Positions 37,341 to 50,863 of a stretch of 64,000 nt of DNA are shown here, piece after piece. Position numbers and translations under genes: made by a program. The notes beneath the pieces were generated by a model. The model saw only the letters and a program-made list of their open reading frames with translations. It did not search any database and was not told the origin of the DNA. This stretch comes from Rathayibacter sp. Leaf185 (GTDB lineage Bacteria > Actinomycetota > Actinomycetes > Actinomycetales > Microbacteriaceae): NCBI RefSeq assembly GCF_001423885.1, contig NZ_LMPP01000002.1, positions 318,575 to 382,574 on the forward strand. Reading direction: 5' to 3'. Numbering within the stretch: the first letter of the stretch is position 1; the number at the start of each line of letters is the position of its first letter.

Positions 37341-37745
37341 GTGTCGACCGTGCGCAACCGGGCCCTCGCCGCCCGCCGGACCGCCAGCCCCCTGCCTCTC
37401 TGGCTGGGCGTGGCGGGTCTTGTGGTGAGCCTGGCGCTGGCGATCCTGGCCGCCTCGACGGCCGCCGCACCGGTGCGGGTCCTCGGCGTCCCGCTGCCGC
37501 TCGTGCGCGGCGGCGCGGTGTGGATGAGCGTCGTCGGCTACCTGCTGACTCCGCTGCTCGTGTTCCTCGCGGCCGGGTGGGACCTCTCCTCCCAGCGAGC
37601 GAACAGCCTCCGCGACGCCCGGCACTTCGCCCCCGACCCGCGGCTGACGCGCTGGCTGCTGTGGCTCTCGGGAGCCGCGCTGCTCCTCGGTGCCTGGCAC
37701 ATCCTCAACATCAGCGTCCCGGTGTCCGAGTGGCTCGGCCTGTGA
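37341..37745 (+). CDS. Small triple-TM membrane protein, first gene of the vWA/tubulin-like operon
   Basis: 134-aa protein with three TM helices (WLGVAGLVVSLALAILAAS, VWMSVVGYLLTPLLVFLAAGW, WLLWLSGAALLLGAWHIL) and a basic cytoplasmic N-terminus. GTG at 37341 follows GGTGGAG. Not a recognised family. Its stop overlaps the GTG of the vWA gene (GTGA), so the two are translationally coupled; it may be a membrane chaperone or scaffold subunit of the complex. Confidence 0.7.
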   Translation: MSTVRNRALAARRTASPLPLWLGVAGLVVSLALAILAASTAAAPVRVLGVPLPLVRGGAVWMSVVGYLLTPLLVFLAAGWDLSSQRANSLRDARHFAPDPRLTRWLLWLSGAALLLGAWHILNISVPVSEWLGL

Positions 37746-40474
37746 TCCGGCGGGCGCTCGCGGTGGTCGTCACCGCGCTCCTGCTCGTGCTGGGCTTCGG
37801 AGCCGCGGCGCAGGCGCAGACCACCGCACCCTCCTCCGCCTCGCTCACCGACATCGGCCGCGGCGCCATCGAGGACCTCCGCACCTGCCTCTCCTCCTCC
37901 GACGTCCTCAACGTCTACTACCTCGTCGACAACTCCGGATCGCTGAACACCGGGGGCGACGACGATCGCGGCTCCGACCCCGATGTCGCCCGCGCCGACA
38001 TCCTCGCGGGCAGCCTGGCCGAGCTCGGTGGCCTGCGCGACGACCTCACCGTCAACTGGGGCGCCGCCTTCTTCAGCCGCGCCTTCGAGCCCGCCGTCGA
38101 CTGGCAGCAGTGGACGGGCGACAGCCCGGCCGCGCTCGCCGACACCATCCGCGCCAAGACCCCGGGCGGCGGCACCAACTGGCTGGCCGGCCTGCAGGGT
38201 GTGCAGTCGGCGCTGCAGAGCCAGCCGAGCGCCGGCTCGGCCTGCCAGCTCGTCGTCTGGCTGACCGACGGCGAGATCGACCTCGGCTCCTCTCAGGCGA
38301 CCGCCGACGCGACCAACGCCCTCTGCGGCGCCCGCATCGACCCCGACGGCGCCGAGCCCAGTGGCTTCGGCGTCCTCGCCGCTCTCCGCCAGGCCGGAGT
38401 CGTCGTGATCGGCACCCTCCTCGCCGACGGCGATCAGCGCGAGGAGGCCCGCGTGATGTGGCCGCTGGTCGAGGGCAGCGGGGCTTACGGAGGCGGCACC
38501 GCCACGTGCGGACCCGCGACGGCCCCCGAGGGCTCCGTCCGCGGCGCCGTGGTCGACGCCTCCGATCCCACCGCCCTCGCCTCGGTGTTCCTCGAGCTCG
38601 GCGCCCGCATCGCCGGCGGGGCGCAGCAGGCCCTCGCGGCCGACGGCACCTTCTGGATCGACGCAGGGATCTCGCGCATCCAGGCTGTGGTCACCGATCC
38701 CGCCTGGACTCTCACGCCGCCCGCGAGCTCCGGCCTCGGAATCCTGTCGGCGACGTCGCCCGAGCTGCAGGTGAGCGGCTCGTCCGGCGCCCAGCTCGTG
38801 CAGCTCACCGTCGACCGCCCCGAGCTGCAGGGCCAGTGGACCCTGACCGGCGCCGACAGCGTCTTCTCCTTCTCCGACCTCCGGATCGTCTTCGACGACG
38901 CCAACCAGGTCGAGCGCGCCGACGACGGCTCGCTCGCGGCCAGCCTCACCGCCCGCGTCGAGCACGCCGACGGCTCCCCGGTCGACCTCTCCGTCTACGG
39001 TCAGGCCGCCTTCACCGCGACCGCCACCGCCGACGGCATCACGACGGCGCTGCCCGACGCCCGCATCGACGCGGCGACCGGAGTCATCACCCTGCCGCTG
39101 CCCGCCGACGTGACGGCCTCCGAGATCCTCGTGACCGCCTCCGTCGACCCGCTGATCACCGCGGCGCACCAGGTCGCGCTCGCGCCGGTCACCACTCAGC
39201 AGACCGTCACCACGGTGCTGCCCGCCGCGTTCCCGAGCGTCTCGTCGCCCGTCGTGCTCTCCGAGCTCGCCGGCGCCGAGGGCCGCGCGGAGGGGACCCT
39301 CGCGATCCAGGGGCCGACCGCCGGCGGCGACGGCCAGGTCTGCCTGACGGACCCGCCCACCGTCACGAGCGACAACGCCGACCGCGCCGACAGCTGGGCG
39401 TGGACCTTCACCGACGCCTCGGGTGCGGCCCTCGCGCCCAGTGCCTGCATCACCGTCGCGCAGGGTGCCTCCGCCACCCTCGCGGTCACCGCCGAGAACC
39501 CCGTGGCCGCCGACTCCTCCGTCACCGCGACCCTCCCGCTCGACATCCGCACCGCCGCCGGCAGCAGCGCGCCGCAGACGATCGCGCTGTCGTTCCCCTC
39601 GACCTTCCCGGTGAACGCGGCCGCGATCGGTCTCGTCTCGCTGGTGCTGCTCCTGCTCGGGGTGCTCCTCCCGCTTCTGCTGCTGTGGCTCTTCAACCGC
39701 CGCAACACGCGGATCGCGATGGTGGGCTCGTTCCAGCGCGGCACGATCCCGGTCGAGATCACGCCCGAGGGCGTCCGCGCCGCGCCGACCGCGACGCGCC
39801 TCGACGAGCGCTTCCGCTACCTCCGCAGCGAGACCGGCGTGCGCGAGCTCGCCGATCCCGAGCTGGGGCGCCTGCGCGCGCACGTGCCGTGGTGGCCGCT
39901 CAAGGCGCCGAGCTACCGGGTGGGCCCGCCCGCGAACGGAGTCGTCATCGCCTCCCGCACGGGCACCCGCAGCACCTCGGCGGGCCGGCCGCTCGCCGAC
40001 GGCGGAGTCGCCTTCACCTCCCTCCCGCTCGACGCCTTCTGGGCGATCGTCGTCCCGGAGCAGGAGCTCGACCGGCCGCGCAGCGAGGAGCCGGTCCGCG
40101 CGACCGCCGTGCTCTACCACCGCGTCGACCGCGACGACGAGGGGCAGTACGACCGCCGCCTCGACGACCTGCTCCGCGACTCCGGCGCCCCCGCCTGGGT
40201 CACCGTCGACGCCCTCCGCCGCGAGCGGGCGGCGAAGCGCCCCGAGGCCCAGGACCCGCCGAGACCCGCCGCACCGCGCGACGGCGCCCCCGCGCGCAGC
40301 AGCGTCCCCTCCCGGCCGGTCTCGCCCCCGCGCCCCGGCACCCCGCCGCCACGCTCAGGAGGCGCTCCCGGCCGGCCGAGCTCCCCGCCCCCACCCCGCC
40401 CCGGCGGCGGCAGCACACCGCCCCCGCCGCCCGGCCGCTCCAGCCCCCGAACCCCTCCGCCCCGCGGTCGCTGA
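37742..40474 (+). CDS. Membrane-anchored von Willebrand A (vWA) domain protein
   Basis: 910-aa type I membrane protein. Signal peptide to about residue 26 (ending AAAQAQ). vWA domain at about 56-260 with a complete MIDAS: DNSGS at 63-67, the GGGTNW threonine near 142 and the WLTDGE aspartate near 178. Beta-rich region to about 620, a TM helix around 624-650, then a cytoplasmic part with a roughly 150-residue folded segment and a Pro/Arg/Ser-rich tail (about 840-910) containing repeated PPPR-type stretches. Signal-anchored outside, so the vWA senses or binds an external or periplasm-equivalent partner, while the tail could contact the tubulin-like protein encoded next. Confidence 0.85.
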   Translation: MIRRALAVVVTALLLVLGFGAAAQAQTTAPSSASLTDIGRGAIEDLRTCLSSSDVLNVYYLVDNSGSLNTGGDDDRGSDPDVARADILAGSLAELGGLRDDLTVNWGAAFFSRAFEPAVDWQQWTGDSPAALADTIRAKTPGGGTNWLAGLQGVQSALQSQPSAGSACQLVVWLTDGEIDLGSSQATADATNALCGARIDPDGAEPSGFGVLAALRQAGVVVIGTLLADGDQREEARVMWPLVEGSGAYGGGTATCGPATAPEGSVRGAVVDASDPTALASVFLELGARIAGGAQQALAADGTFWIDAGISRIQAVVTDPAWTLTPPASSGLGILSATSPELQVSGSSGAQLVQLTVDRPELQGQWTLTGADSVFSFSDLRIVFDDANQVERADDGSLAASLTARVEHADGSPVDLSVYGQAAFTATATADGITTALPDARIDAATGVITLPLPADVTASEILVTASVDPLITAAHQVALAPVTTQQTVTTVLPAAFPSVSSPVVLSELAGAEGRAEGTLAIQGPTAGGDGQVCLTDPPTVTSDNADRADSWAWTFTDASGAALAPSACITVAQGASATLAVTAENPVAADSSVTATLPLDIRTAAGSSAPQTIALSFPSTFPVNAAAIGLVSLVLLLLGVLLPLLLLWLFNRRNTRIAMVGSFQRGTIPVEITPEGVRAAPTATRLDERFRYLRSETGVRELADPELGRLRAHVPWWPLKAPSYRVGPPANGVVIASRTGTRSTSAGRPLADGGVAFTSLPLDAFWAIVVPEQELDRPRSEEPVRATAVLYHRVDRDDEGQYDRRLDDLLRDSGAPAWVTVDALRRERAAKRPEAQDPPRPAAPRDGAPARSSVPSRPVSPPRPGTPPPRSGGAPGRPSSPPPPRPGGGSTPPPPPGRSSPRTPPPRGR

Positions 40475-40510
40475 CAGCGACCCTCCGCCCTCGGTCGCGT
40501 GACAGCGACC
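40466..40510 (+). promoter_or_regulatory. Twin hairpins between vWA and tubulin-like genes
   Basis: GGTCGC-TGACA-GCGACC (40466-40482) and GGTCGC-GTGACA-GCGACC (40493-40510) are near-identical 6-bp stem-loops 27 bp apart. They cover the vWA stop and most of the only sizeable gap in the operon. Could tune expression of the tubulin-like gene or bind a regulator. Confidence 0.6.
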
Positions 40511-40538
40511 TCCTGCGATACGACGAAAGCAGACAGCC

Positions 40539-43500
40539 ATGCTCAAACCCTTCCTCCTCATCGGAGTCGGCGGCTCCGGCGGCAAGACCCTCCGCGGCAT
40601 CAAGTACCAGCTCGAGCTCAAGCTCCAGCAGCTCGGCTGGGAGGGCGGCATCCCCGCCGCCTGGCGCTTCCTGCACTTCGACACCCCGACCGTCCAGGAC
40701 GGCATGGAGTACCAGGCGCCGTTCCTGCCCCGGCAGGACTACCGCGGACTCGTCAGCACCGCGGCGACGTTCGACATCGTGCACGGCTCGATCACGAGCG
40801 CGCACGCCACCAACAACGCGATGCGCCACGACATCGAGCGCCAGCTGCCCGACCCGCGCCTGGTGAAGGTCGACGTCACGAAGGGCGCCGGCCAGTACCG
40901 CGCCGTCGGCCGCGCCGTCGCGCTCGCGGCCACGAAGGAGATCGCGCAGGCCGCGCGCATCGCGATCGCGAAGATGAACGACGCCGAGGCGCTCGCCGAG
41001 CTGCAGACCCTCGGTCAGCGTCTGCGCGCCCGCGACGACGGCGGAGACGGCAGCCCGATCGTCATCGTCATCTCGTCGGTCGCCGGCGGCTCGGGAGCGG
41101 GCCAGTTCCTCGACGTGATCGAGATCGTGAAGTCGACCGCCAAGCAGTACCCGTGGTCGAACCAGTTCTTCAGCATGCTCTACGCGCCCGACGTGTTCGA
41201 TCAGCTGAACGTGACCGCCGGCATGCCCGGCAACGCGCTCGCCTCGATCTCCGAGACCATGAACGGCTTCTGGACCGACACTCCGTCGCCCGCGACCCTC
41301 GAACTCCTGCGCACCAAGGGCGTCGCCCCCTCGTACGGAGCCGCGATGGACCGCGTCGGCGCCGCGTACCCGTTCATCGTCGGCCGCAGCAACAGCAAGG
41401 TCACCTTCGAGGATCAGAACGCCGTCTACGACGCCGTCGCCACCAGCCTCACCGCGTGGATGATCGACGAGCGCGTGCAGGACGACATGATCGCCTACTC
41501 CTCGGGCAACTGGCAGGCCCGCTCGGCCGCCAACGTGCTGCCCGACAACTCCGGGCTGATGAGCCCGGCGCACCACTCGCCGCCCTTCTCCTCGATCGGC
41601 TTCGGCCGCGTCACGCTCGGCCGCGAGCGCTTCCTCGAGTACTCGGCCGAGCGCTTCGCCCGCTCGGCGATCGACCGGATGCTCTTCGCGCATGCCGAGG
41701 AGGACCCGCAGTTCGAGCGGATGACCGAGCGCGAGTACATCGAGAAGTCGGCCGACAGCGAGTACCAGCGCTTCCTCCGCGAGCTGCGGCTGAACGAGGA
41801 GACCGCCGAGCACAACGACGTCACCGACGCGCTGCGCGACACCTCCGTGCTCGACCTGATCAAGGCCGAGCTGCAGCGCACCGCCGACGACGAGCTGAGC
41901 CGCCCGGAGTCGCTCGACCGCCAGGGCGGCACCGACATCACCACCTGGACCGACCGCCTGGTCAACGAGTACACGCGGGCCAACCCCCGCCTCCTGCAGC
42001 GCGATCGCGAGGCGCGCCAGCAGCGCCTCGACGAGTGGACGCGCACCATGCCCGGCCACATCCTCGAGACCGTCTCGCGCTACGTCGCGCAGGACGGCCT
42101 GCCGGTCGTCGTGGCGATGCTCCGCCGCCTCGAGCGCGGCCTCAAGGGCACCGTCGACGCGCTGCGCGTCGAGGCCCGCCAGCACGAGGAGTGGGTGGGC
42201 ACCCTGAGCTCGCTCGTCTCCGACGAGCTGCGCACCTCGGCGAACCAGCAGTCGATCCGCCCCGATCAGGAGGCGGTGCAGTTCGCGATCCAGCGGCTCG
42301 GGCAGGCGCTCGAGTGGTCCTCGGAGGCGTCGCTGCGCGACTCCGCATGGGCCCTGCTCGCCGAGCTGCGCGAGACCTTCCTCGGCCCGCTCGCCGACTA
42401 CCTCGACGGCTCCCGCACCGCGCTGCTGCAGCGCGTGCACTCGCGCAAGACCAGCGACGACCGCGAGAACGCCTACGAGTTCTGGCCGCGCCGTGTCGAC
42501 GAGACCGTGCCGCGCAAGTACACCCCGGCGCCCAACGAGCGGATGCTCATCGAGCCCGAGAAGTACCCGGGCGAGTTCCAGAAGCTGGTCCGCGCCTCGG
42601 TCGAGGGTGACGCGAAGTACCAGGACGCCGTGCTGCGGGTCCTGACCGACCAGCTCGTCGGGATCAGCCCCGACACCGAGGGGGAGGCGGGCGCCTGGTC
42701 GCTCGTCGGCAACCCGCGCACCTGGCGCCCCACCGTGACCGCCGACCCGGCCGTCGCGAACGCCGCCCAGCGCGCCTCCTTCGAGCTCGCGAGCGACCCC
42801 GAGACCTACGTCGCCCGGGCCCGCGCCTGGATGAAGCGCGACGGCACCCCGTTCGCCGCCTACATCGGCGAGGATCTGCTCGGCTTCTTCGACCGCGAGG
42901 TGCTGCCGCCCGACGTGTTCGCCGCCCGCCGCGACCGCTACCGCGAGCAGCTGCAGGCCGCGCTCGGCGCCAGCGAGCCGCTGGTCAAGCTCAACCCGGC
43001 GCTGCTGCGCGCCGTGCACGGCAAGGCGATCAACCAGGACACCTCGCTCGTGTTCAGCTCGATCCCGTTCCGTGCGGGCACCGAGATGTACGAGGTCACC
43101 AAGGGCGTGCTCGCGCAGATGGGCGTCTGGGACGACGCGACGAGCGAGTCGTGGTTCCAGGATCAGAAGGTCGACGGCATCGAGGTCTTCGCGATGTCGG
43201 GCTTCCCCTATCAGCCGATCGTCATGGACTCGGTGATGGAGCCGATCGCCCGCGGCTGGCTCGCGCAGTCGAACACGCAGGACAGCCGCGAGGCGTTCTG
43301 GAAGTTCAAGCGCGCGCGCCTGCTCGGCGAGAGCATCCCCGCCGACCCCCGCGCCATCGAGTCGATGATCCGCGGCTGGTACGTCGCCAAGGCACTCGGC
43401 CGCCTGGCCGTCGACTCGTCGCAGGGCGAGAAGGGGCCCAAGCTCTCGGTCTGGGACCCGTCGACGCGCTCCTACGCCGACTTCCCGCACCCGCTGCTCA

Positions 43501-43937
43501 GCGAGCGCAACGCCCGCCCCGCCGACTTCCCCGGCGTCGTGCTGCAGTCGCTCGCGATCGCGATGGCGCTCTGCAACGTCGAGGGCACCCTCGCTCCGCT
43601 GGCCGCCTACCGCGTGCTGATCTCGCTGGGCCGGCGCGATGAGGACACCGACCTGTCCGAGTGGCTGCAGAGCGCCGCTCTGCCCACGGGCGCGCCGGTT
43701 CCGGAGGCGTCCCGCGCCGGTTCCGCCGACGGCGACCTCGCGTCGCGTCGCGCCGCCGTTCAGGCCTACCTCTCGAACGAGCTCGCCCGCTTCGACAGCG
43801 AGATCGTGCAGCAGGACGAGATGGTGTCGGTCTACGACTACCCGGTGACGTGGGAGATGCGGGAGCAGTTCGTGGACGCGATCCGCGCGCTCGTCTCGTC
43901 GGTGGTCTCGACCGGACCCCGGGACACCGGAGTTTGA
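40539..43937 (+). CDS. Tubulin/FtsZ-superfamily protein (Tubulin_2-like)
   Basis: 1132-aa protein with an N-terminal tubulin-like GTPase domain. The first nucleotide-binding loop is GVGGSGGKT (9-17) and the tubulin/FtsZ signature (GGGTGSG in FtsZ) is represented by AGGSGAGQ (182-189) after a hydrophobic strand IVIVISSV. HFDTPT near 47-52 marks another phosphate/ribose contact region. The rest, about 700 residues, is a long alpha-helical extension without TM helices. Much larger than FtsZ, TubZ or PhuZ, matching the Tubulin_2-type proteins found with vWA partners. Predicted cytoplasmic, GTP-binding, possibly filament-forming at the membrane. ATG 40539 follows AAAGCAGACAGCC, a weak ribosome site. 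Confidence 0.85.
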   Translation: MLKPFLLIGVGGSGGKTLRGIKYQLELKLQQLGWEGGIPAAWRFLHFDTPTVQDGMEYQAPFLPRQDYRGLVSTAATFDIVHGSITSAHATNNAMRHDIERQLPDPRLVKVDVTKGAGQYRAVGRAVALAATKEIAQAARIAIAKMNDAEALAELQTLGQRLRARDDGGDGSPIVIVISSVAGGSGAGQFLDVIEIVKSTAKQYPWSNQFFSMLYAPDVFDQLNVTAGMPGNALASISETMNGFWTDTPSPATLELLRTKGVAPSYGAAMDRVGAAYPFIVGRSNSKVTFEDQNAVYDAVATSLTAWMIDERVQDDMIAYSSGNWQARSAANVLPDNSGLMSPAHHSPPFSSIGFGRVTLGRERFLEYSAERFARSAIDRMLFAHAEEDPQFERMTEREYIEKSADSEYQRFLRELRLNEETAEHNDVTDALRDTSVLDLIKAELQRTADDELSRPESLDRQGGTDITTWTDRLVNEYTRANPRLLQRDREARQQRLDEWTRTMPGHILETVSRYVAQDGLPVVVAMLRRLERGLKGTVDALRVEARQHEEWVGTLSSLVSDELRTSANQQSIRPDQEAVQFAIQRLGQALEWSSEASLRDSAWALLAELRETFLGPLADYLDGSRTALLQRVHSRKTSDDRENAYEFWPRRVDETVPRKYTPAPNERMLIEPEKYPGEFQKLVRASVEGDAKYQDAVLRVLTDQLVGISPDTEGEAGAWSLVGNPRTWRPTVTADPAVANAAQRASFELASDPETYVARARAWMKRDGTPFAAYIGEDLLGFFDREVLPPDVFAARRDRYREQLQAALGASEPLVKLNPALLRAVHGKAINQDTSLVFSSIPFRAGTEMYEVTKGVLAQMGVWDDATSESWFQDQKVDGIEVFAMSGFPYQPIVMDSVMEPIARGWLAQSNTQDSREAFWKFKRARLLGESIPADPRAIESMIRGWYVAKALGRLAVDSSQGEKGPKLSVWDPSTRSYADFPHPLLSERNARPADFPGVVLQSLAIAMALCNVEGTLAPLAAYRVLISLGRRDEDTDLSEWLQSAALPTGAPVPEASRAGSADGDLASRRAAVQAYLSNELARFDSEIVQQDEMVSVYDYPVTWEMREQFVDAIRALVSSVVSTGPRDTGV

Positions 43938-43939
43938 GC

Positions 43940-46900
43940 ATGTCCGACGGTTCGCGGCCCGATGGTTTCTGGCCCGACGGCAAGGCGGCGATCGTCCTGC
44001 TGCCCAGCGGTGCGCAGGGCGAGACCCTGCTCGAGCTCGCCGCGCAGTGGACCAAGACCGGACTCCTCGGCCAGGCGCTCTGGGTGCTGCCCGAGCACGT
44101 GAAGACGTCCGAGTACGCGCCTCCGCAGATCGAGGCCGTGGTACTCGGGGTGGGCGCCGACCTCGAATCGGTCGCGATCTCGGTCGACCTCTTCGAGGCG
44201 CTGGCGGAGGAGCCGCTCGGCCTGGTCCGGCTGGTCACCCTCCGCTCGGCCCTGCCCGAGCGCCAGACCGACGCCGCGCAGGACGCGGTCGCCGACCTGG
44301 TCAGCCGGTGGGTGCGCACCTCGATGCCGCTGCCGAACCCCTCCGCCACGCTCGTCGACCAGACCACCGAGCTGCGCCGGGTGACGCTGATCTGCGCGCC
44401 CACCGCGTTCCAGCTGCGCGAGCGGGTCGAGGCGCACGAGCACGGCTTCATCGTCATCGCGTCGCCCGAGGACCGCTCGAGCCCCTGGTCGGGCGACGCC
44501 TTCGTGCGCGACGACGAGCGCTTCACCGGCTTCACCCTGACCCATCTGGCGAGCGTCGCCGGGCTCTGGAACGGCATCACCGACGGCAGCGTCGAGCTGA
44601 TGAGCCGCGAGACCGACGGCGGCGACTCCGTCTGGATCTCGCGCGTGTTCATGAACGCGGTGCTGACGGAGTCGCTCGGCCGTCGCGTCGCCGCCGGCGT
44701 GCTCGAGAACGCGGCCCGCCCCGACTCCCTGCTGATCGACCCCAGCGTCAGCCCGCCACCGCCCGGCACCGCCTTCATCGAGGACGGCCAGATCGCCGGC
44801 TACGTCGACGGCATGGTCGAGGGCGCTCTGCGGCTCGACGGCGGCGCGCTCACCTACGACTCCGCGGGCGCGCTGGACGTTCCGGAGCCCTCTCGGATCG
44901 GCTTCTTCGCGCAGATCGGGCGCTTCTTCGCCTTCTCGGCGGGCAAGCTCGTGCAGATGCCGCGCTGGAGCGCCCGCTGGCTGTCGTCGAGCGCCAACCG
45001 CTCGATGACCCGCGCGCTGCACACCGCCGAGGGCTCGGCGGTCGTCGGCTCCTCGTTCGACGAGGTGCTGGATGTGCGCGACCGCCTGCTGCTCGCCGAC
45101 CTCGAGCGCCTGCGCGACGACGAGGGCCGCGCCCGCGTCGAGGCCGGAGCCCCTGCTGCGATGGCGCACGTGCGCACGACGCCTCAGCTGTGGGCCGGGC
45201 TCCGCGAGCTGGTGTTCGGCGCGCTCGACGGCAGCGCCGACCTGCGCGACGCGGGCTTCGTGCCCGTCGAGGGCGCGGTGCCCGTGTTCGGGCGGGTGGG
45301 CGACGTGCTCGCGCTGCCCGACGGGCCGTGGGAGTCGGGCACGCACGACGTGCCGCCGGGGTTCCCGGCGCGGGTGGACTGGTACGCGCTCGCGCTGTCG
45401 GATCCGCGGAGGCAGCTGGAGAACTGGGTGACGGCGGCGGAGGCGTCGGCGGCTGCGGAGGTGCCGGACGTCGCGGAAGCGTCGTTCGCCCCGCCCGCGC
45501 AGGAGACCCTCGTCGAGGAGGAGGCCGCGAGCACCGACTCCGCCGAGCCCGCGCGACCCGTGGTGCAGATCGAGGTCCCTGCGGAGGAGCCCGTCGCGCC
45601 GGTCGTCTCCGTCGCGCCTTCTGTTGACCCCGAGACGCGCCGCTCCGGCCGCATGCAGGCGCTCGCCGAGTACGACCTCTGGGCCGGCGCGCAGAGCTCG
45701 TCGTTCGTCTGGCGCTTCCTCGACCGGATCGGCTCCGAGCGACGCCGCGCCGAGGACGAGGTGGCCTACCTCGTGGGCGAGATCGACGCGATCCGGCCCC
45801 AGCGCCCGGGTGAGCTGCTGGCGCTGCGCCGCGACTTCCACCGCTCGATGCTCGTCGGCTGGATCACCGTGCTCGCCCTGGCGCTCGCCGTGGGCGTCGG
45901 CATCTGGTTCGTCAACGACTACGCCGCGCGCACCGATTCGTTCGATCCGCGCATCCTGACCTCGCTGCTCTCGTGGACGCTCGTCGGCCTCGGCGGCGCC
46001 GCGCTGCTCATCACCCTCGTCTCGCTCGTGCGCTACCACGCCGGCTGGTCGCGCTTCGAGCGCCGCATCGAGGTCGAGCGCACCCGCCTCGCCCACTACG
46101 GAGCGAGTGCCAGGCGGGCCCGGGAGGAGGCCGCCCGCCTCCGCTCGGTGCACCGGCAGGCCGTGGACTGGCTGGTGCTGCTGTCGAAGGCCATCCACCG
46201 GCCGTGGCACGTGCCTCCGGTGTGGACCCAGCACGAGACCTTCGACGTCGAGCGCGGCGCCATGCCCTTCGCCGTGCGCCTCGCCACCGTCAGCGGCGAG
46301 GAGACCGCCGCCGTCGCCCGCATGCGCGCCGCGATGACGTCCAAGCTGGTCCGCCGCGGCTGGCGCCACGAGGCCTTCGAGGCCCTCGTGCAGGAGATGG
46401 CCGCCGACTACGGAGCCGGCCAGGGCTTCGGCCTCTCGGCGCTCGACGAGGACCTCCCGCACTCGTCGAACCACACCCGGCGGATGCTGCTCCGCGCCCT
46501 CGACGACGAGTCCCTGCTCACGCGGATCGCCGCCCCGCGCCTCGCCGACATCGTCGCCTCCGTCCAGCGCGACGAGGAGTCGATCGCCCGCCCACGCGTG
46601 CGCCCCATGGGCTCGAACCCCCTGAACGCCCTGCGCCGCCCCGAGGACTACGAGGGCATCGAGCTCGACGTGCCGTGGGACGACTTCCTGCTGGAGTCGC
46701 TGACGCGCGCCGACCCGATGACCCCGGTGAGCGCCACGGTGCTGACCGAGCTGCAGGTGGGGGAGCGGTACCACGAGCGGGTGACGAGCTTCCTCGTCGC
46801 GCCGTCGCGACTGCAGGAGCGGCTGCGGTTCGATCCCGCCGCGCCGATCCACGTGGTGCCGTACGAGGGGGCGACGGGTGCGCCGGTGGATCTGGTGTGG

Positions 46901-47014
46901 CGCGTGGATGTCGTCGGGCCGGTGCCGCGCGCGGCGATCCGGCTGTGGGACGGGGCGGTGCGCGCCGACTCCGAGCCCACCGTGGCGCCGAGAGACGTGG
47001 ACACGGGCATCTAG
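43940..47014 (+). CDS. Large two-TM protein of the vWA/tubulin-like operon
   Basis: 1024-aa protein of unknown family. Residues 1-500 are a soluble alpha/beta region (KAAIVLLPSGAQGETLLELA at the N-terminus), 500-620 an acidic Ala/Glu/Pro linker, then two TM helices at about 637-658 (GWITVLALALAVGVGIWFV) and 673-695, a basic coiled-coil-like helix (FERRIEVERTRLAHYGASARRAREEAARL) and a C-terminal soluble domain. N- and C-termini are probably cytoplasmic. Starts 2 bp after the tubulin-like stop, with GGAG at a good distance. Likely membrane tether of the tubulin-like protein. Confidence 0.75.
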   Translation: MSDGSRPDGFWPDGKAAIVLLPSGAQGETLLELAAQWTKTGLLGQALWVLPEHVKTSEYAPPQIEAVVLGVGADLESVAISVDLFEALAEEPLGLVRLVTLRSALPERQTDAAQDAVADLVSRWVRTSMPLPNPSATLVDQTTELRRVTLICAPTAFQLRERVEAHEHGFIVIASPEDRSSPWSGDAFVRDDERFTGFTLTHLASVAGLWNGITDGSVELMSRETDGGDSVWISRVFMNAVLTESLGRRVAAGVLENAARPDSLLIDPSVSPPPPGTAFIEDGQIAGYVDGMVEGALRLDGGALTYDSAGALDVPEPSRIGFFAQIGRFFAFSAGKLVQMPRWSARWLSSSANRSMTRALHTAEGSAVVGSSFDEVLDVRDRLLLADLERLRDDEGRARVEAGAPAAMAHVRTTPQLWAGLRELVFGALDGSADLRDAGFVPVEGAVPVFGRVGDVLALPDGPWESGTHDVPPGFPARVDWYALALSDPRRQLENWVTAAEASAAAEVPDVAEASFAPPAQETLVEEEAASTDSAEPARPVVQIEVPAEEPVAPVVSVAPSVDPETRRSGRMQALAEYDLWAGAQSSSFVWRFLDRIGSERRRAEDEVAYLVGEIDAIRPQRPGELLALRRDFHRSMLVGWITVLALALAVGVGIWFVNDYAARTDSFDPRILTSLLSWTLVGLGGAALLITLVSLVRYHAGWSRFERRIEVERTRLAHYGASARRAREEAARLRSVHRQAVDWLVLLSKAIHRPWHVPPVWTQHETFDVERGAMPFAVRLATVSGEETAAVARMRAAMTSKLVRRGWRHEAFEALVQEMAADYGAGQGFGLSALDEDLPHSSNHTRRMLLRALDDESLLTRIAAPRLADIVASVQRDEESIARPRVRPMGSNPLNALRRPEDYEGIELDVPWDDFLLESLTRADPMTPVSATVLTELQVGERYHERVTSFLVAPSRLQERLRFDPAAPIHVVPYEGATGAPVDLVWRVDVVGPVPRAAIRLWDGAVRADSEPTVAPRDVDTGI

Positions 47015-47889
47015 TGGTGGGAGCGCCTCCGCCGCCTCGCCCGGAAGCGTCGCGGCGGGTGGCGCCTCCGGTGCTTCGCGGTGCCGTCCCTGCGCGCGTC
47101 GTGCGCCGGCGGACGCCGTGGTGGGCGTTCGTAGTCGCCGCTGTGGCTGCTGCGGCTGTCGCCTTCGCTGTGGTCGGAGTGGGGGAGACGGTCGGCGCGC
47201 CGGGTGCCATTGGGACGACATCGGCATCTCCCTCCGCGGCTGTTGCTTCTGCGCCCGCTTCGCCTGTCGCTTCGCCTGCTGTTTCGCCGACCGCCACGAC
47301 TGCCGCTTCGCCGTCCACTGCTGCTGTCGGCCCCGCCGCCGAAGCCCTCGCCGCCCTCGCGGCAATCCCGACCGTCGATGGCTTCGCCGACCTCCCCTAC
47401 GACCGCGACCTCTTCGGCCAGGCCTGGTCCGACGTCGACCGCAACGGCTGCGACACCCGCAACGACATCCTCGGTCGCGATCTGATGGATCCCGTGTTCA
47501 AGCCCGGTACTCGCGACTGCAAAGTCCTCGCGGGCCTGCTGATCGATCCCTACGACGGCACCGCCGTCTCCTTCGTCTCCGGATCGAACACCTCTCGCCT
47601 GGTGCAGATCGACCACGTCGTCGCCCTCGGCTGGGCCTGGCACCACGGCGCCTGGGCATGGAGCGACGAGCAGCGCCTCGCCTTCGCTAACGACCCGGCG
47701 AACCTCGTCGCGGCCTCGGAGGAGACGAACCAGGCGAAGAGCGATGCGGGGCCGGGGGAGTGGCTGCCGCCCGCGCGGGAGCTGCAGTGCGGCTACATCG
47801 AGCAATTTGTAGCGGTAGTGAGCGCGTACGGGCTCGAGGTGACCGAGCTGGATCGGAAAGCGGCGAAGGCAGTGCTAGCCAATTGCTAA
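47014..47889 (+). CDS. Membrane-anchored/secreted HNH-type nuclease (DUF1524, GmrSD C-terminal-like)
   Basis: 291-aa protein. Basic leader, one TM or signal helix (about 37-58, WWAFVVAAVAAAAVAFAVVG), an Ala/Ser/Pro/Thr linker (65-110) and a nuclease domain with the DUF1524 pattern: DRNGCDTRNDIL (142-153), IDHVVAL (199-205, Asp200-His201), ANDPANLVAA (225-234, Asn230) and TNQAKSDAGPGEWLPP (238-253). This HNH variant is common in exported actinobacterial nucleases. GTG 47014 overlaps the preceding TAG by one base (GTG 47017 is an alternative), so it is coupled to the large TM protein. Base composition falls toward the 3' end. Confidence 0.85.
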   Translation: MVGAPPPPRPEASRRVAPPVLRGAVPARVVRRRTPWWAFVVAAVAAAAVAFAVVGVGETVGAPGAIGTTSASPSAAVASAPASPVASPAVSPTATTAASPSTAAVGPAAEALAALAAIPTVDGFADLPYDRDLFGQAWSDVDRNGCDTRNDILGRDLMDPVFKPGTRDCKVLAGLLIDPYDGTAVSFVSGSNTSRLVQIDHVVALGWAWHHGAWAWSDEQRLAFANDPANLVAASEETNQAKSDAGPGEWLPPARELQCGYIEQFVAVVSAYGLEVTELDRKAAKAVLANC

Positions 47890-47988: not shown

Positions 47989-49077
47989 ATGCCGGTTCAG
48001 ATCTACGCGTCAGATTTCGCCTATGAACTCGATAGAACCTCGGAGGAGGCGAGCCGGATACTTGAGGATCGGTTCGGTGTGGGGAACGGCCGACCGGAAG
48101 GCTGGCTTCTCACGGAAGGCCAGGCGGCCAAATTGCAAGAGGATTTCCCGCCACCGCCGCAAGCGGGCCGCCGATTTGATCTCCCTATCGGCAAAGAGAT
48201 CCGTCGGCGCTCGCTACTTCGAGCTCTCGGTGGCTCTTGGCAGAACGGGATCGCGCCGTCAGCTTCGCTGCCTGAGATATTCGCTTTTACAAACCCGAAA
48301 ACCGGCGCTCGCTTCGGCTACGACCAGTTCGAAGGCGTCCGAGCGGATGGCTCATACGCTTATACGGGAGACGGCCAACGCGGTGATCAGAGCTTCGGAT
48401 CATCGAATGCTGCGCTAAGAGACGCAGCGCAGAATGGGAAAGCCATTCGCCTGTTCAAAGCTAATGGTCCAAGAGTGACATATATCGGCGTTTTCACAAA
48501 CGGCACTCCAAACTATGTGTATCGAACCATTCGAAGCGCCTACGAGAGCGAGCGTCGTGGAATCATTTTCAATCTTCTACCGCTAGACGCCGACCTTCGA
48601 ATGCTGTCCGTTCCAGTCGATTCGTCGGGTGCAAAACCTGGGCCGCGGGACTGGGTCGCTCCAAACGTCTCAGACATTGTGATCTCCGGCGGAGATGAGG
48701 CTCTCGCGGGTGATCGGGTTGTGACCAGGGTTGAGTTTGAGCTTCAGAGAGACTTTGGGCATTGGCTCATTCAGCAGGGAACTCCGCCGAGTCTCTTGTC
48801 GCTCTCCCCCGGCTCTTCTCCGATTCAGCCAGATCTCTATGTTGAGTCCCGCGGTTGGATTGTCGAGGCGAAGAAGTCGACCGCGCGATCCCTTGTCAGA
48901 ATGGCAATTGGTCAGGTGCTGGACTACGCGCACGTTGCAAGACGTCAAGGGTACCCGGCAGCCCCACTCATTCTTCTTCCAGGTAGGCCGGATGAGGATA
49001 TGGTCGATTTGATCCGGAGTCTCTCGATCATCACTGCTATCCGGACGGACGACGGCTTCCAGCTCATCGACCCCTAG
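47989..49077 (+). CDS. Modification-dependent type restriction endonuclease: ScoMcrA-SRA-like plus PD-(D/E)XK domain
   Basis: 362-aa protein. The central part follows the ScoMcrA SRA pattern: GGSWQNGIAPSASLPEIFAF, FGYDQF, DGSYAYTGDGQRGDQ (121-133), SNAALRDAA, then KAIRLF. The C-terminal part has a PD-(D/E)XK nuclease core, Asp282 in PDLYV and EAK at 293-295. ScoMcrA recognises phosphorothioated or methylated DNA, so this is likely a type IV-like enzyme that cuts modified foreign DNA. Composition is clearly foreign: 28 of 60 bases from 48481 are G or C, against a G+C-rich neighbourhood. Shares the CTAG at its stop with the convergent NUDIX gene. Confidence 0.75.
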   Translation: MPVQIYASDFAYELDRTSEEASRILEDRFGVGNGRPEGWLLTEGQAAKLQEDFPPPPQAGRRFDLPIGKEIRRRSLLRALGGSWQNGIAPSASLPEIFAFTNPKTGARFGYDQFEGVRADGSYAYTGDGQRGDQSFGSSNAALRDAAQNGKAIRLFKANGPRVTYIGVFTNGTPNYVYRTIRSAYESERRGIIFNLLPLDADLRMLSVPVDSSGAKPGPRDWVAPNVSDIVISGGDEALAGDRVVTRVEFELQRDFGHWLIQQGTPPSLLSLSPGSSPIQPDLYVESRGWIVEAKKSTARSLVRMAIGQVLDYAHVARRQGYPAAPLILLPGRPDEDMVDLIRSLSIITAIRTDDGFQLIDP

Positions 49078-50690: not shown

Positions 50691-50786
50691 AGGGGGAGGC
50701 TGCCTCGGCGTCATTCGCGGACATGATCGGCAACCGGCAGTCATAGAGTTGCGGGCCGAGCCTCGACCCCGAAGGCCGGGGTCAGC

Positions 50787-50855
50787 GCGGCGTGCCCGAG
50801 CGGCCAGTGAGCGGTCTGCAACACCGCTGACGCGGGTTCCAATTCTGCCGTCGCA
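50787..50855 (+). tRNA. tRNA-Cys-like element, anticodon GCA, degenerate
   Basis: A cloverleaf can be drawn. Acceptor GCGGCG (50787-50792) pairs with CGTCGC (50849-50854), only 6 bp. The linker TG corresponds to U8-G9. The D arm has the conserved AGCGG but a stem CCC/GTG with one mismatch. The anticodon arm GCGGT-CTGCAAC-ACCGC is perfect, with anticodon GCA at 50818-50820. The T arm is GCGGG-TTCCAAT-TCTGC with two G-U pairs and a T-loop that departs from TTCRANY. No encoded CCA. The 69-nt length, missing acceptor pair and T-loop change suggest a tRNA pseudogene or a non-translating tRNA-like RNA. Confidence 0.45.
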
Positions 50856-50863
50856 TGCGAACT

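Follow-up and report, generated by a model that had tools for sequence, protein, structure and literature searches.

The function of Tubulin_2 proteins has been puzzling since 2010, with membrane remodelling favoured in one reading and immunity in another. Operons that join a vWA protein to the tubulin-like FtsZl1 were described with a predicted role in membrane remodelling, and kinase, GTPase or OmpA partners are frequent in them, not obligatory, according to the available text of that paper (Makarova and Koonin, 2010, PMC2875224). Tubulin operons of actinobacteria that encode a membrane vWA/FNIII protein also appear among the GAP1-N2/DO-GTPase conflict systems in the accessible part of a later paper (Kaur et al., 2020, PMC7159879). 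The window analysed here, the whole stretch of 64,000 nucleotides from Rathayibacter sp. Leaf185 (NZ_LMPP01000002.1, positions 318,575 to 382,574), contains an operon of five genes built around such a protein, and the question it raises is which reading fits it. We argue that the operon possibly represents an undescribed branch of a predicted defence system in bacteria.

An earlier note, made from the DNA letters, had described five plus-strand genes at 37341-47889, and these are borne out by open reading frames, coding-frame composition and a separate gene caller. The frames of genes 1-4 are coding by codon-position composition, and the gene caller returned all five genes, with gene 5 beginning later, at 47170; its start is taken here as GTG 47014, and later GTG starts are possible. 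The coordinates also confirm the tight packing that had been noticed: genes 1 and 2 overlap by 4 bases, provided that gene 2 begins at GTG 37742, genes 2 and 3 are 64 bases apart, genes 3 and 4 only 2, and the stop of gene 4 (47012-47014) touches the start of gene 5 at 47014. The features are as follows.

37341..37745, plus strand: gene 1, small membrane protein of 134 aa with three TM segments (hydropathy; comparable small TM proteins stand before the vWA gene elsewhere)
37742..40474, plus strand: gene 2, vWA protein of 910 aa counted from GTG 37742 (sub-threshold VWA_2 match; homologues beside the tubulin gene)
37928..37942, plus strand: MIDAS motif DNSGS of gene 2, residue 63 (motif in the vWA domain)
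39626..39682, plus strand: TM segment of gene 2, residues 629-647 (hydropathy)
40539..43937, plus strand: gene 3, Tubulin_2/FtsZl1 protein of 1132 aa (PF13809, E 3.9e-38, residues 6-378)
40563..40580, plus strand: T1-like GTP loop GVGGSG of gene 3, residue 9 (motif)
41085..41102, plus strand: T4-like GTP loop GGSGAG of gene 3, residue 183 (motif)
43923..43934, plus strand: C-terminal DTGV tail of gene 3 (counterpart in gene 4)
43940..47014, plus strand: gene 4, large protein (BIG) of 1024 aa (alignment with 12 relatives)
45848..46030, plus strand: TM hairpin of gene 4, about residues 637-697 (hydropathy)
47000..47011, plus strand: C-terminal DTGI tail of gene 4 (counterpart in gene 3)
47014..47889, plus strand: gene 5, GmrSD_C-type HNH nuclease of 291 aa, predicted to be exported (PF07510, E 9.8e-15)
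47125..47181, plus strand: TM anchor or signal of the nuclease, residues 38-56 (hydropathy)
47452..47847, plus strand: GmrSD_C domain of the nuclease, residues 147-278 (Pfam)

The protein types proposed in the earlier note all stood. Gene 3, recognised there by its tubulin-type loops, belongs to the Tubulin_2 family, with a PF13809 score of 132 bits against a cut-off of 27 and both the T1 and T4 loops present. It has no TM segments by hydropathy and is the sole PF13809 match in the 4.1 Mb genome. Its closest named relatives come from Rathayibacter strains, at 93-96% identity, and the family is patchy at every level surveyed (8/14 other genomes of the genus, 14/60 relatives, 28/394 genomes of the class, 22/396 of the order and 17/396 of the phylum). 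Gene 3 found no match among phage records, and a plasmid search with it returned two Rhodococcus megaplasmids, NZ_CP113952.1 and NZ_CP110470.1, at 25% identity. In the deep-branching Actinomycetota loci L092, L094 and L097, the gene that follows the tubulin-like one itself encodes a tubulin-like protein with a degenerate GTP loop.

Gene 2 is the expected membrane vWA protein with a MIDAS motif, DNSGS at residue 63, joined by TDG at residue 175; its VWA_2 match falls just below the Pfam cut-off (E 7.5e-5, 23.7 against 27 bits), and a PF17410 match, likewise below cut-off, was discarded. Hydropathy places a signal/TM segment at residue 5, a TM segment at 629 and a third hydrophobic stretch at 209, the last lying within the vWA domain. 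The predicted layout runs from signal/TM through an external vWA and beta-rich part to the second TM, a cytoplasmic part and a Pro-rich end, and all six Cys lie between the signal/TM and the TM at 629. The pairing of a tubulin-superfamily protein with an external vWA partner, for which the earlier note had pointed to Makarova and Koonin, is thus supported, as far as the available text of that paper describes it (PMC2875224). Gene 1 has the claimed three hydrophobic segments and no Pfam match over the cut-off.

Gene 4 is made up of an N-terminal alpha/beta part, a variable linker, a coiled coil, the TM hairpin and a C-terminal part; the hairpin accounts for the two central TM helices reported earlier, and its flanking charges are predicted to put both ends inside. 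No Pfam match exceeded the cut-off, and one to PF01578 below it was discarded. Comparison of profiles between gene 4 and the gene 3 families found nothing. Gene 4 may be a degenerate tubulin paralogue, a hypothesis for which the structure model is too weak to decide. In L060 and L061 gene 4 is split in two, into an N-terminal part and a TM/C-terminal part.

Gene 5, described earlier as a TM-anchored HNH nuclease, keeps that description, with one TM at residues 38-56 and its type refined to GmrSD_C (PF07510). Four Arg/Lys stand in the 15 residues before the TM and none in the 15 after it, and all 4 Cys of the protein lie after it. It is the sole PF07510 match in the genome. An NCBIfam scan of the five proteins added nothing to these assignments.

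Loci like that of the window are known from Rathayibacter, Microbacterium, Subtercola and other families of actinobacteria, with homologous operons in Microbacterium ulmi and Subtercola boreus, and they usually run from a small TM protein through the vWA protein and the tubulin-like protein to the large protein. The order of the last three recurs in all GAP1-less loci uncut by a contig end, except the divergent L031, and a small TM gene is called in front in most of them (it is absent from L076, and L100 has an unlabelled 109-aa gene). A second type of locus reads c14, vWA, tubulin-like, c13, c12 and c11, the last being GAP1-N2 (scanned in L055), and gene 4 is homologous to its c13 (hhalign probability 99.9, E 1e-35). 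A third type, which we label type C and which occurs mostly in large genomes, has a different large protein; the equivalent place is held by c7, to which gene 4 gave no profile match, and the one type C locus scanned, L046, contains a kinase-like protein and DO-GTPase2.

The separation of the first two types extends to whole genomes. GAP1-N2 was found in 0/22 genomes with only GAP1-less loci (G023, with the divergent type, included) vs 16/16 with the second type, 38 genomes in all, G006 having one locus of each kind. For DO-GTPase2 the figures are 1/22 (G007, on another contig) vs 9/16 (one of them under the cut-off), no more than 56 candidates having been scored in any genome. The window's own genome gave 0 matches to GAP1-N2 and 0 to the DO-GTPase2 model with all 90 candidates scored; the control Corynebacterium glutamicum is matched by both, and by PF13809. 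In a tree of 49 tubulin-like proteins, a quick one in which some branches are long, 19 GAP1-less rows fall on one side of a branch (support 99) and 14 second-type rows are likewise grouped (support 97); L017, L018, L021, L023, L027 and L028 are classed as GAP1-less from neighbourhood alone. The operon belongs to a separate, GAP1-less clade of actinobacterial tubulin/vWA systems, and this clade shows that a core of tubulin, vWA and large protein can occur with the proposed GAP1 component missing. The idea of a five-gene unit survives in part: genes 1-4 form a conserved core, and gene 5 is a frequent, not a constant, neighbour. The neighbourhood survey that the earlier note had proposed, in which homologues usually found without the flanking genes would speak against a unit, came out accordingly, with genes 1-4 co-occurring and the result for gene 5 mixed.

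The C-terminal tails of genes 3 and 4 are alike within an operon and unlike between operons, as in KSGI/NSGI of Subtercola, EREFL/DREFL of L030, TTGIL/PTGIL of L060, FGSGF/FGEGF of L056 and EIEY/PLEY of L088. Across 27 lineages, defined by grouping the tubulin-like protein at 70% identity, the last four residues reach a mean BLOSUM score of 7.33 vs -2.09 for permuted partners (z 9.4, 0/5000), and grouping at 50% identity leaves z 7.3 (20 lineages). Stretches 8 and 16 residues further in gave z 1.2 and 2.2 at 70%, and 1.8 and 2.6 at 50%. The matching also holds inside each clade (z 6.0 and 4.2) and when partners are exchanged only within small clades (1/10000). In 11/27 lineages the two tails share two or more of their last three residues, vs 1.2 expected, and the last residue is hydrophobic in 22/27 and 24/27. 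For 13 loci retrieved once the pattern had been seen, of which 12 also count among the 27, p was 0.0023, and 0.0011 without two frame-disturbed ones (n=11). The tested set stands apart from loci at a contig edge (L016, L023, L032, L059, L083 and L096), those without a large-protein match (L031, L092-L095, L097, L098 and L101) and the extension stretches L063-L075.

Matching is poor in L081, L082, L089, L090, L100 and L142. Gene conversion was rejected as the source of the matching, the codons of the matching residues being different, and the pattern looks like selection on the peptide. The vWA protein does not share in the pattern (z 1.8 or less); in type C operons the signal is weak at 70% (113/5000, four residues) and vanishes at 50%. 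Tails that served as a host degradation signal should not change as fast as these do, which we offer as an argument only. Because both proteins end in the same short tail, we infer that both may use one cognate pocket. Co-varying, matching tails of a tubulin-like and a large protein look new; they give a sequence-level handle on which parts touch, and, since the tails co-evolve, mutational or structural work can look for the binding pocket. Three further observations concern tails: in L060 the matching tail is carried by the second half of the split gene 4, several type C vWA, tubulin-like and c7 proteins (L042-L053) end in DPW or DLW-like motifs, and on NZ_CP113952.1 a GAP1-type operon near a DUF4268 gene has tails that match poorly.

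The place of the nuclease is less simple. The PF07510 nuclease is common, being present in 50/60 related genomes, usually in one or two copies, and in 8/13 lineages it lies within 25 kb of the tubulin-like gene, directly beside the operon, where 0.33 would be expected (P 1.5e-10 under a model that assumes uniform placement). The 13 rows leave aside contig ends (G013, G048 and G370), other genomes belonging to the same Rathayibacter lineage and the order- and phylum-survey genomes, in which the nuclease was uncounted genome-wide. G023 enters with its divergent tubulin locus, G057 and G234 count as 'not near', with the two genes on different contigs, and so does the GAP1-type Rathayibacter lineage, though in G004 a nuclease follows the extended operon after 77 bases. 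The arrangement may be downstream on the same strand, downstream convergent or upstream divergent. A TM precedes the domain in 15/15 associated nucleases, with four or more Cys after it, and those of L031 and L060 carry an Excalibur calcium-binding domain. No nuclease stands near L017, L018, L027, L061, L080, L099 or L100; among 26 later-fetched loci the stretch contains one in 4 (L076, and L078, L079 and L091 of one genus), and none was found on the same contig within 50 kb in 17 type C assemblies from large genomes, many of them drafts (12 classed by neighbourhood, the rest by family label). G342, outside those 17, has no nuclease at all. In a tree that sets 16 associated nucleases beside 12 others, the latter being those of 20 non-associated stretches that gave a usable domain, 7 changes are needed against a shuffled mean of 9.2, and at least 3 are forced by well-supported branches; on this count recruitment looks repeated. 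L039 has a second, shortened copy at 769-1134, downstream of the first. An exported HNH nuclease beside such an operon looks new.

The surroundings of the related loci add a further line of evidence. At E 1e-10, 57 PADLOC families, 25 of them listed, matched in 106 flank proteins (17 loci) vs 9 in 93 control proteins (20 regions). This raw contrast is overstated because several models match one protein (18 families on one DrmC) and the controls have up to 16 member matches, judged mostly generic; the control regions come from 15 genomes that only partly overlap the 17 loci. At E 1e-40 or better, among the matches listed, at least 8 systems remain in the flanks (Zac, DISARM, mREase_IV, PDC-S11, UzuA, SoFic, DRT and PDC-S07) vs 2 in the controls (mads and PDC-S48). 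Scans of single proteins, covering 20 chosen flank proteins, placed defence genes at at least 6/17 loci: DrmB and DrmC (L029), ZacA (L031), ZacB and ZacC (L058), type IV restriction (L060), type I restriction with PDC-S11 (L066) and a DRT reverse transcriptase (L076). Such flanking of these loci by known defence systems (DISARM, Zac, restriction, DRT) looks new.

Within the window, PADLOC gave no match to speak of for the five proteins and the neighbour at 47989-49077; no model recognised the five, the only weak match being that of gene 5 (E 0.026). The upstream TetR gene is ordinary by Pfam. The neighbour, a lower-GC gene after the nuclease, shows a weak SAD_SRA match (E 0.036), a D..EAK nuclease-like motif by eye and a 52% identical relative in L019, and is a possible modification-dependent restriction enzyme. 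About 2.9 kb downstream of the operon, across lower-GC DNA, lies a tRNA-Cys gene (50785-50858), a possible integration point.

On balance, we tentatively read the operon as a membrane-anchored conflict device, most likely anti-phage, in the GAP1-less branch of the actinobacterial tubulin/vWA systems, and hold this to be close to, though short of, an even bet. In such a device, the vWA protein, which by predicted topology crosses the membrane, would sense or bind something outside, and the tubulin-like protein, whose loops are present, would bind GTP and assemble inside. The large TM-hairpin protein would join it, the shared tail docking in a pocket perhaps on the tubulin-like protein itself, so that the polymer is tied to the membrane. 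The nuclease, held by its TM at the outer face if export is correctly predicted, might cleave DNA that reaches or leaves the envelope.

Other accounts explain parts of the same material. The nuclease may be no more than a common companion in genomic islands, with exported HNH genes and these operons sharing integration hotspots and no common mechanism; the commonness of the family, its varying orientation and the mixing of associated and other copies in the tree all fit this. Yet in 8 lineages it adjoins the operon directly and does not lie elsewhere in the island, on both sides and both strands, and in the window no gap separates it from gene 4, and we think this account somewhat unlikely. 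A membrane-remodelling or vesicle-forming cytoskeleton, in which a polymer tied by the large and vWA proteins bends or organises membrane and the nuclease is unrelated or serves for clean-up, agrees with the reading of vWA/FtsZl1 operons in the published text available (PMC2875224), with the TM segments in every window core protein bar the tubulin-like one, and with the weak match in the PDB between gene 4's coiled coil and VIPP1 (E 0.0019, possibly composition only). The patchiness within the genus, the defence genes at the flanks and the repeated recruitment of a nuclease would nevertheless be unusual for housekeeping, and we consider such a cytoskeleton unlikely.

An extracellular-DNA device is the least probable of these accounts, and we regard it as decidedly improbable. 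There the nuclease and the vWA sensor would handle environmental DNA, driven by the internal polymer, for nutrient use, biofilm DNA, or uptake or conjugation control; the predicted export, the even number of Cys in the window's nuclease and the calcium-binding domains of L031 and L060 speak for it, whereas core operons without a nearby nuclease are common. A secretion role, which the earlier note had also raised, found no support in this analysis. For the conflict device that we tentatively prefer, the defence genes next to a number of loci and the exported nuclease that keeps recurring offer a directly testable phenotype.

Comparison with known systems places the operon further. Like the FtsZl1/vWA operons, it has a tubulin of the PF13809 family and a vWA partner with MIDAS, and unlike them it has matching tails and a nuclease, neither of which enters the description in the available text (PMC2875224); no kinase, GTPase or OmpA is among the Pfam matches of the five proteins, and gene 4 may be among the associated A or B gene families of those operons. 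Gene 5 shares its C-terminal GmrSD_C domain with the GmrSD type IV restriction enzymes but has no NTPase match, the TM and linker taking the N-terminal place; in its 291 aa only GmrSD_C passes the cut-off, and the GmrS NTPase domain was not detected. Among the open-access literature matches listed, there was no report of an exported GmrSD_C nuclease joined with a tubulin, nor of tubulin and vWA in anti-phage defence beyond Kaur et al. SNIPE, described in the part of the source available as a membrane-bound nuclease that can cut phage DNA during injection (PMC13190303), is a possible model for the working of gene 5 by analogy only, no homology being claimed, and differs in that gene 5 is predicted to face outwards. 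In L064 a GAP1-type operon runs on into TerD, a TerC-like DUF475, a C-C bond lyase and StiP (Pfam), and similar Ter genes follow the one in L063 (by similarity), the two being same-genus genomes; such stress genes are not in the window's operon. The earlier note had held that the large TM protein and the nuclease fit no described version, which goes too far: the tubulin theme that actinobacteria show among the GAP1-N2/DO-GTPase systems (PMC7159879, in its accessible part) is closely related, and homologues of gene 4 were found in such operons. Unlike those systems, the window's genome lacks matches to GAP1-N2 and DO-GTPase2, its operon ends in an exported HNH nuclease, c12 has no counterpart in it, and an FNIII-HRDC fusion gave no Pfam match in the five proteins. 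Like them, so far as that text shows, it combines a tubulin with a long C-terminal part and a membrane vWA protein with a beta-rich part (PMC7159879), and the GAP1-type loci, with their gene 4 homologue, form the neighbouring clade on the tubulin tree.
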